Origin: Granulicella sp.
GTDB taxonomy: Bacteria > Acidobacteriota > Terriglobia > Terriglobales > Acidobacteriaceae
DNA length: 41,674 nt
Assembly (NCBI GenBank): GCA_003142215.1
Contig: PLOT01000246.1
Coordinates: 1-41,674 of the forward strand
Direction of reading: 5' to 3'
Numbering within the stretch: position 1 is the stretch's first letter; each line of letters opens with the position of its first letter. Position numbers and translations under genes: made by a program. The notes beneath the pieces are model-generated. The model ran no database searches. It was not told where the DNA came from and worked only from the letters and a program-made list of their open reading frames with translations. Shown here piece by piece: positions 20,634 through 25,375 of the stretch.

Positions 20634-20669
20634 GCCTGTCATTCTGAACGAAGTGGTTTATGCGCCGTC

Positions 20670-20701: not shown

Positions 20702-20745
20702 CTGCGTATTTGCCGTTGTCTGTCCTTGCTGTCATTCTGAACGAA

Positions 20746-21393
20746 GTGAAGAATCCCCGCATCTCGCTCGTACTCCCACTGCTGCTCGCGCTCTCGTGCA
20801 TTCCGCAAGCCGGCGCGCAGGATTCCGCCCTCATCCGCCGCGTGGACGACCACTACAACCACCTGCGAACCCTGCGCGCGCGCTACACCGAGCGCTACAC
20901 CGGCATGGGCATGGACCGCACCGAGAGCGGCACGCTCACCCTCAAGAAGCCCGGCCTCATGCGCTGGAGCTACGACGCGCCGCCCGGCAAGCTCTTCGTC
21001 CTGGACGGCCGCTTCGCCTGGTTCTACACCCCCGGCGACGCGCAGGTCTCGCGCGCACCCGCCAAGCAACTCGACGACCTGCGTTCCCCCCTGCGCCTTC
21101 TGCTCGGCCACACTCAGCTCAGCAAGGAACTCGACCAGATCGCCACCGCGCCCGACGGCGCGAACTTCCGCATCACAGGCGTCCCCAAGGGCATGGATCG
21201 ACGAGTCCACCTGCTCACCCTCATCGTGACTTCCACCGGTGCCATCGCGCGCCTGAAGCTGGAAGAGACGGACGGAGCCACCACCGAGTTCACCTTCACC
21301 AGCCTCGAAGAAGACATCCCGCTGCCCGCCTCCGACTTCATCTTCACCCCACCTCCCGGAATCCCCATCGTCTCCGCGCAGCCTCCCATTTAG
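20746..21393 (+). CDS. LolA-like outer membrane lipoprotein carrier protein
   Basis: GTG start followed by a signal peptide (VKNPRISLVLPLLLALSCIPQAGAQ); ARYTERYTG, LTLKKPGLMRWSYDAPPGKLFVLDGRFAWFYTPGD. Confidence 0.8.
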   Translation: MKNPRISLVLPLLLALSCIPQAGAQDSALIRRVDDHYNHLRTLRARYTERYTGMGMDRTESGTLTLKKPGLMRWSYDAPPGKLFVLDGRFAWFYTPGDAQVSRAPAKQLDDLRSPLRLLLGHTQLSKELDQIATAPDGANFRITGVPKGMDRRVHLLTLIVTSTGAIARLKLEETDGATTEFTFTSLEEDIPLPASDFIFTPPPGIPIVSAQPPI

Positions 21394-23542: not shown

Positions 23543-23899
23543 ATGGCGACGCTTGCGAAATCTTTACCGCCCGCACCGGCACTCGGCAAGTCCAAGTCGA
23601 CCAGGATATTGAGCGCCCTGCCGCGCAAGACATCGCTCAGCCGTGTGGCCCAGCGCGAACCCATCGCCGCAGCCAAGGCCAAGACTCACTTCCTGCAACT
23701 GCTCGATCAGGTCGAGCAGGATCGCGTCCCAATCACAATCACGAAACGAGGCCGCGTTGTGGCCCAGCTAACACCGGTCGCAGTAGAAATTGGGAAGTCG
23801 TCTCTCGAAAACATGATAGGACGCCTGAGGGGCAGCATAAAAATTACCGGCGACATCGTCAGTCCAGATCATGATTTCTGGGGCCCGGATTGGCGATGA
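23543..23899 (+). CDS. Phd/YefM-type antitoxin
   Basis: AAKAKTHFLQLLDQVEQDRVPITITKRGRVVAQLTPV. Confidence 0.88.
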   Translation: MATLAKSLPPAPALGKSKSTRILSALPRKTSLSRVAQREPIAAAKAKTHFLQLLDQVEQDRVPITITKRGRVVAQLTPVAVEIGKSSLENMIGRLRGSIKITGDIVSPDHDFWGPDWR

Positions 23900-24336
23900 T
23901 CTCAGGCGTATTGCTGGACACACATTCCTGGGTTTGGCTCCAGAATGACCAACTGGACATGCGAGGCGCCGTAAGACAGACGCTGCAAGACGCACTCGAT
24001 CGAGACGCTCTCTTTGCCTGCTCGATCTCGATGCTGGAGATCGCCAACGCGGCTCGCAGAGGTCGAATGTCGTTCGATAGGAGCCTCGCTGACTGGTTCA
24101 AAATCAGTCAACGCAATCCCGGAGTGCGTCTCATCGACATTTCGCCAGAGATCGCACTGGATACGATGAAGCTGCCTTCAGCCTTCCATGGCGATCCGGG
24201 CGACCGTATCATTGCGGCTACGGCCCGCGTCAACGGCCTCACACTTTGCACCCATGATCGCGATCTCCTACGCTTCGGAAAACAGGGCTTGATGCGAACC
24301 TTGAAGGTGAACAAGAAGAGGGAACTCCATGCCTGA
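23896..24336 (+). CDS. PIN-domain (VapC-like) toxin
   Basis: LLDTHSWVWL, ISMLEIANAARRGR, GDPGDRIIAATARVNGLTLCTHDRDLL; ATGA overlap with the antitoxin. Confidence 0.9.
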   Translation: MISGVLLDTHSWVWLQNDQLDMRGAVRQTLQDALDRDALFACSISMLEIANAARRGRMSFDRSLADWFKISQRNPGVRLIDISPEIALDTMKLPSAFHGDPGDRIIAATARVNGLTLCTHDRDLLRFGKQGLMRTLKVNKKRELHA

Positions 24337-25375
24337 CCCAACCCGCGTTGCCCTCATCCAGATGGCCTGCGCGCCCTCCACCGCCGAGAACCTAGACCAC
24401 GCCGCCGATCTTGTCCGCCAGGCCGCACGCGACGGCGCGCAACTCATCTGCCTGCCCGAACTCTTCCGCTCCCAGTACTTCTGCCAGCGCGAGGACCACG
24501 CGCTCTTCGCCCTCGCCGAGCCGATCCCCGGCCCTTCGACTGCACGTCTTTCCGCAGTCGTACGAGAAGCCAAGATCACGCTGATCGCCAGCCTGTTCGA
24601 GCGCCGCGCACCCGGCCTCTACCACAACACCGTCGCCGTGCTGGACCACGACTCCGCCGAGCCGGACAACATCAGTGGCATCTACCGCAAGATGCACATC
24701 CCCGACGACCCGCTCTTTTACGAGAAGTTCTACTTCGCGCCCGGCGACCTCGGCTTCCGAGCTATTCCCACCAGCCATGGCCCCATCGGCGCGCTCATCT
24801 GCTGGGACCAGTGGTTCCCGGAGGCCGCCCGCCTCACCGCGCTCGCGGGCGCGCAGTCGATCTTCATCCCCACCGCCATCGGCTGGCACCCCAGCGAAAA
24901 GTCCGAGTTCGGCGCCGCACAGTACTCCGCCTGGAAGGCCATCCAGCGCTCCCACGCCATCGCCAACGGAGTCTTCGTCTGCGCCGTCAACCGCGTCGGC
25001 CACGAGCACGGCGACGTCATCCTCGAATCGCCTGAAGTTTTGAAAGAATCGGATGCTTTGAAAGGGACGGGCTTCAGCCCGTCCGCATCAACACTCAATA
25101 AGACCGGGACTTTAGCCCCCGAGGGAATCTCGATCCCTGGCCCCGGCGACCACAGCACCGCCAGCGGCTGCAACTCAGGAATCGACTTCTGGGGCGGCAG
25201 CTTCATCGCCGATCCCTTCGGACGCATCCTCGCCCAGGCCTCCCACAACCAGGAAGAGATCGTCACCGCGACGCTCGACCCCGCGCTGGTCGAAACCACC
25301 CGCCAGAACTGGCCCTTCCTGCGCGACCGCCGCATCGACGCCTACAGCAGCATCACAAATCGCTTCATTGATTAG
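24329..25375 (+). CDS. aguB: Carbon-nitrogen hydrolase, N-carbamoylputrescine amidase-like, with an in-frame insertion
   Basis: CLPELFRSQYFCQ, YRKMHIPDDPLFYEKFYFAPGD, GALICWDQWFPEAARL, SAWKAIQRSHAIANGVFVCAVNRVGHE...FWGGSFIADPFG. Confidence 0.9.
   Translation: MPDPTRVALIQMACAPSTAENLDHAADLVRQAARDGAQLICLPELFRSQYFCQREDHALFALAEPIPGPSTARLSAVVREAKITLIASLFERRAPGLYHNTVAVLDHDSAEPDNISGIYRKMHIPDDPLFYEKFYFAPGDLGFRAIPTSHGPIGALICWDQWFPEAARLTALAGAQSIFIPTAIGWHPSEKSEFGAAQYSAWKAIQRSHAIANGVFVCAVNRVGHEHGDVILESPEVLKESDALKGTGFSPSASTLNKTGTLAPEGISIPGPGDHSTASGCNSGIDFWGGSFIADPFGRILAQASHNQEEIVTATLDPALVETTRQNWPFLRDRRIDAYSSITNRFID

Follow-up and report, generated by a model that had tools for sequence, protein, structure and literature searches.

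A block of DNA within a carbamoylputrescine-amidase-like gene of a Granulicella-group soil acidobacterium very probably derives from a miniature palindromic element that is specific to the lineage and linked to genes for REP-associated tyrosine transposases (RAYT), a copy of which inserted into the coding region with the enzyme kept functional. The gene was examined in the window (the whole stretch of DNA analysed, 41,674 nucleotides), which belongs to contig 75 of the 3.64 Mb draft genome G000. In the proposed course of events, a stop-free copy of the element (a core of two hairpins in ~72 bp, with terminal inverted repeats at the outer ends of more complete copies) would have landed with a net length that is a multiple of three in the variable loop between NRVGHEHGD and FWGGSF. 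The enzyme would have stayed functional because there was no stop in frame, the net length was a multiple of three and the loop that was hit is variable; the element would then have been retained, lengthening a probably flexible loop by ~27 residues, and have drifted since. Most likely the inserted peptide is a tolerated loop with no separate function.

The host gene and the inserted block

Residues 6-326 of the amidase match CN_hydrolase (PF00795, E 5.7e-60) in a domain search, and the CN-hydrolase fold, the Glu-Lys-Cys triad and nearest solved structures of AguB type assign the host to the AguB-type enzymes, the best PDB folds for the model being 6mg6 and the plant N-carbamoylputrescine amidase MtCPA (5h8i). 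Against TIGR03381 (agmatine_aguB) the protein scores 266 bits, under the cut-off of 410, in two stretches split at the insert, the better of which covers residues 6-228 only, ahead of the insert; because this equivalog cut-off is not reached, specificity for carbamoylputrescine is regarded here as putative. A Phd/YefM-type antitoxin gene (PF02604) and a PIN-domain toxin-like gene (PF01850) occupy window positions 23543-24336, directly 5' of the amidase, and the PIN ORF shares 8 nt with the start of the amidase gene.

Table 1. Coordinates in the window of the host gene, the inserted segment and the elements within it
Feature	Position	Strand	Basis
AguB-type carbon-nitrogen hydrolase host gene, N-carbamoylputrescine-amidase-like	24329..25375	+	348 aa, ORF intact
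Catalytic Glu44 codon	24458..24460	+	Invariant in 61-sequence alignment
Catalytic Lys121 codon	24689..24691	+	Invariant in 61-sequence alignment
Catalytic Cys158 codon	24800..24802	+	Invariant in 61-sequence alignment
Inserted segment, approximate limits (residues ~235-267; net +27 aa vs G017)	25033..25128	+	Alignment with G017, G022 and other orthologs; tblastn break 236/268
TTTTGAAAG, added start of a possible second, truncated upstream repeat unit (interpretation)	25038..25046	+	Sequence
Core of the dispersed two-hairpin repeat, CTTTGAAAGGG-H1-spacer-H2-GAGGGAAT	25056..25128	+	cmsearch R1 78.7 bits, E 1.8e-18; family alignment
Hairpin 1, perfect stem GGACGGGC / GCCCGTCC, TTCA loop	25065..25084	+	Sequence; compensatory changes over 23 copies
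Hairpin 2, GGGAC-TTTA-GCCCC, one A.C mismatch in the amidase copy	25106..25119	+	Sequence, family alignment
GCNS, 4-codon host-lineage insertion, separate from the repeat, common to G038	25166..25177	+	Alignments

Strong AguB matches were found by tblastn in 60 of 62 genomes of the genus, and among the readable orthologs the block is carried by the window genome only. In these orthologs the alignment stops at residues 230-237 and restarts at ~264-268, and the spanning alignments of G033 and G013 lack 31 residues at the position of the block. The closest readable ortholog, that of G017, is 94% identical up to residue 236, with the tblastn alignment broken at 236/268, and has EHGDVIHSNPDGSTTEVRGPGDHSTASGIEFWGG where the window amidase reads EHGDVILESPEVLKESDALKGTGFSPSASTLNKTGTLAPEGISIPGPGDHSTASGCNSGIDFWGG. 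Alignment to homologs, which the earlier note had set beforehand as a test, thus showed the block not to be conserved, being absent from every readable genus ortholog examined and the site in the sister genome G038 being hidden by a gap. This gap (contig 28 near 23980, L041) consists of 15 N placed precisely at the insertion site, which is not readable there, and it is what a repeat-broken assembly would give if the repeat sits there.

The net gain over G017 is 27 aa (81 bp), with the 4 aa of GCNS counted apart, and loop residues such as GPGDHSTA are part of an ancestral, length-variable host loop. The size of 45-50 aa originally put forward for the block must therefore be reduced to ~27-33 aa, since the larger figure takes in ancestral loop. 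A near-identical empty AguB site is absent from the orthologs at hand and the exact ends of the insert are thus approximate; its borders are uncertain by ~10-15 nt because the host loop has itself diverged.

The ORF, the perfect hairpin and the second palindrome described in the earlier note were all recovered in place when the sequence was checked. The inner part of hairpin 1, GACGGGCT-TC-AGCCCGTC, occupies 25066-25083, one more G-C pair extending it to the limits in Table 1, and hairpin 2 begins 21 nt past hairpin 1. The only two matches of this 18-nt palindrome in the window (0.06 expected) are the two strands of one site, and a covariance-model search of the window returned a strong match at the amidase site only. 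The insert has a GC fraction of 0.56 against 0.66 for the gene, and the in-gene copy, folded alone as RNA, is of modest stability (z -1.5) and retains at most a degenerate outer inverted repeat. The doubled start of the repeat is present as well in a copy from G022 (L065).

An AF2 model of the amidase is that of a confident hydrolase (mean pLDDT 85.4, pTM 0.88), in which the insert falls between a strand ending at ~226 and a strand starting at 285, within a low-confidence stretch (residues 231-280, block pLDDT 56-76). The AlphaFold check that had been suggested for a surface loop thus placed the insert in a region of low confidence, which is not proof of a surface loop; judged from the model, the insert loop may be disordered in the actual protein.

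A dispersed two-hairpin repeat and associated RAYT genes

The earlier note had viewed the block as a palindromic repeat of intergenic type lying in frame, and it proved to belong to a dispersed family, nearly all examined copies of which are outside conserved proteins. The hairpin segment does occur elsewhere in the genome, as also anticipated there: the covariance model gave 47 matches in the window genome, ~15 of them strong and full-length, and dozens to more than 100 in relatives, with 128 in the sister G038 and 46-61 in G017. Dispersed partial copies were likewise obtained by BLAST with the insert as query. An exact-pattern search had yielded a single near match to the 18-nt hairpin, making it appear near-unique in the genome, a result overturned by the model search; exact searches undercount because compensatory changes alter the stem from copy to copy. 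The repeat is present in 28 of the 46 relatives searched, nearly all of the same genus, and no Rfam family matches it. One distant outlier, G074, of a different family in the same class, has 82 model matches, with the genomes searched from other families being nearly empty, which points to a related element there or to spread by horizontal transfer.

Twenty-three copies from the window and other genus genomes were aligned over 72-74 columns, with loops CTTYAG and CTTTAG and flanks TTGAARGG and GAGGG. Both helices covary across this alignment, in which 96.7% of cells are paired and the covariation score is 0.396 (0.106 in shuffles), and slid controls collapse in the same test. In 27 longer copies the consensus of the outer inverted repeat is CTA.G.AA.CTCTGAACAAGTC ... 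ACTTGTTCAGACCTTCCCTAG; RNAalifold, applied to a mixed alignment, did not place this repeat as a stem, and the terminal repeats are for that reason read from the consensus sequence alone.

A RAYT gene is flanked by a + and a - copy of the repeat, ~500 bp apart, in three genomes (G000 contig 111, G013 and G031), and since an inverted copy pair brackets RAYT in all three, the repeats are probably RAYT-mobilised miniature elements. A dispersed short palindrome, hairpins with compensatory changes and inverted copies flanking a RAYT (HUH/Y1) gene are together the marks of a REP/RAYT-type system. The RAYT ORF ends extend into the bracketing repeats (L069 in G031, L084 in G013, L185 on G000 contig 111), so that annotated RAYT termini in the genus probably hold repeat-derived peptide. 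The G000 RAYT protein scores above the cut-off of PF01797 and reaches 68 bits with NF047646 REP_Tyr_transpos (cut-off 80), RAYT matches under the NCBIfam equivalog cut-off having come from partial translations. In the window genome, a 1.1 kb stretch around the RAYT gene contains 3 of the 47 copies; near three clustered copies of G017:C2, RAYT was not found at the threshold used. On the basis of gene neighbourhood, RAYT, acting on hairpin single-stranded DNA, would be the mobilising enzyme.

In-frame copies in other proteins and the competing explanations

For 223 distinct copies the surrounding sequence was searched for reading frames that cross the element and encode protein to either side of it, each candidate then being inspected individually; counts of genic and intergenic copies refer to these sampled contexts, drawn mostly from top-scoring copies in a small number of genomes. 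The family was found in frame in three conserved proteins, namely the amidase and the methionyl-tRNA synthetase (MetG) of the window genome and the PEP carboxylase (PPC) of G045, and because such genic cases are ~1-2% of copies, most genic insertions were probably purged. Long ORFs over copies L262, L293, L297, L308, L321 and L396 were rejected as spurious GC-rich frames or genes starting 3' of the repeat.

In MetG (L004; G000 contig 283, 751-3249, minus strand), the linker that follows KMSKS, bounded by ETILDAFG and ADVLRYFLL, contains two hairpin pairs read in frame, and hairpin pairs of the same type are found in the same linker of MetG from G023 and G007. The MetG linker of G017, G009 and G006 has another kind of segment, reading GTCATCCTGAGCG or similar. 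A second repeat type, GTCATYCTGAGCGAAG-like and giving the peptide VILSAAKDP when translated in one frame, is likewise read in frame within the MetG linkers of G017, G009, G006 and G000, and two identical 20-mers related to it stand 93 bp apart in the window, at 20636-20655 and 20729-20748. In PEP carboxylase (L077; G045 contig 3, 693223-696285), the in-frame copy accounts for ~23 aa. Orthologs in G001 and G023, 84% identical, are without the ~23 residues that translate the element, the uninterrupted EYPESNPDSHPVAIS of G001 standing against EYPESAGES-SVKGTASALPEATTNKGALAPEG-HPRAIS in G045.

These comparisons bear on several other explanations of the block. A loop inherited from ancestors of this AguB subfamily or selected for function in it, with the palindrome there by coincidence, would agree with the variable length of the EHGDV-FWGG loop in the genus and with the longer loops, unrelated to the block, of G052 and G027, but is extremely improbable given that the peptide is missing from all other readable genus orthologs and that it is the DNA, rather than the peptide, that is found again at dozens of unrelated positions, its hairpins conserved. 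Contigs or strains might instead have been joined through the repeat during assembly of a draft genome of 329 contigs (83.7% complete, 5.6% contaminated), and the sister assembly breaks at the very same place; such an artefact is barely credible, however, as a chimeric join would not restore a matching C-terminal half in frame, both halves of the amidase are collinear with G017, and a like insertion is present in the PEP carboxylase of the independent, near-complete G045 assembly (~10 contigs). That the insertion killed the gene, leaving a recent pseudogene still open by chance, would fit its limitation to one genome and appears very unlikely on several grounds. The ORF is intact with its triad present, dN/dS against G017 is 0.167, a sign of purifying selection, over the span since the G017 split and not just since the insertion, and polarised amino-acid changes number 9 on the window branch against 8 on the G017 branch, with no excess of replacements. 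Agmatine deiminase (PF04371), the enzyme one step earlier in the pathway, is encoded elsewhere in the same genome, and the same element is tolerated by MetG, a gene that a cell would not be expected to lose. By these indications from sequence, the amidase carrying the block appears to be functional.

Another explanation holds that the in-frame peptide has been exapted, the reading frame of the element being tuned so that genic insertions code. All in-frame cases (AguB, MetG of three species, PPC) do use hairpin 2 in one frame and orientation, with a leucine TTA codon, giving (P/A/T)LA(P/A)-like peptides, but just 22 of 101 full copies have no stop in the AguB frame, stop-free copies being more numerous for three other frames, the peptide stretches between the hairpins vary, and the rarity of genic copies points to purging of most genic hits; exaptation is accordingly judged unlikely, and no selection for frame is claimed because the numbers are too small. 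A broader proposal, fairly unlikely at present, is that the element is a protein-insertion module, in which the sense frame of hairpin 2 (LAPEG-type peptide) would be selected to be stop-free and structurally harmless, certain linkers, above all the post-KMSKS linker of MetG, would be recurrent acceptors, and RAYT-driven repeats would steadily lengthen conserved proteins of the genus. Insertion of a RAYT-associated miniature element, tolerated in a variable loop, is the reading preferred for the amidase.

Relation to known palindromic elements

In the passages of Di Nocera et al. 2013 (PMC3733652) drawn on here, GTAG and CGTC REPs are described in frame in ORFs of several species, with REP dimers encoding 20-30 aa, tolerance in flexible loops proposed, and REP families associated with RAYT genes. 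The Granulicella element is like these intragenic repeats in being a short hairpin repeat, often dimeric, that can lie in frame, then contributes ~20-30 aa, and is RAYT-associated. It differs from them in that no invariant GTAG or CGTC columns are seen in the acidobacterial 23-copy alignment, where CGTC occurs only in the subset with a GACGGGC stem, and in being a direct pair of two unlike hairpins, with outer inverted repeats in fuller copies. The host is also different, as for Acidobacteriota those passages give a TIR-flanked RAYT family in Koribacter, with K. versatilis ORF1552 among the REPtrons/TIRtrons, and contain no intragenic cases. A Y1/HUH transposase gene between inverted repeats, together with a dispersed non-autonomous family, is shared with REPtrons/TIRtrons as presented in the same passages (PMC3733652), whereas the bracketing unit in Granulicella, compared by description with the Koribacter TIRtron, has two hairpins and continues into the ends of the RAYT ORF.

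Rickettsia palindromic elements (RPE) are described in these passages, which cite Ogata 2002 and Claverie and Ogata 2003, as dispersed palindromes in frame inside conserved proteins, and the CGTC type, including R. conorii RPE-4 and RPE-6, as being without a dedicated transposase (PMC3733652). Likened by description, the Granulicella repeat shares with RPE the in-frame presence of palindromes in conserved proteins, here AguB, MetG and PPC, and is set apart by copies that bracket RAYT genes and by the small proportion of copies that are genic. The resemblance to RPE proposed in the earlier note is therefore an apt analogy, although the phenomenon, from what these passages contain, is not unique to Rickettsia (PMC3733652). 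No report of in-frame palindromic insertions in Acidobacteriota was found in the open-access literature, most subscription papers being outside the scope of the search. The Granulicella repeat is a RAYT-linked acidobacterial variant of a phenomenon known in other phyla and in Rickettsia.

For annotators, odd insertions and assembly gaps in acidobacterial proteins (with peptides such as KGTGFSP, GLKPVPFK, LAPEG and VILSAAKDP) are probably repeat-derived. The system is a rare case in which uninterrupted sites and a probable mobilising enzyme are both at hand for mobile DNA turned protein, and the neutrality of the insert, the survival rate of genic insertions and the use by RAYT of hairpin sites in coding DNA are testable here. 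In the Granulicella group, non-coding mobile DNA would thus have become protein sequence in at least two further proteins besides the amidase, and central enzymes have been entered, including a tRNA synthetase at a linker that took in repeats in several species.
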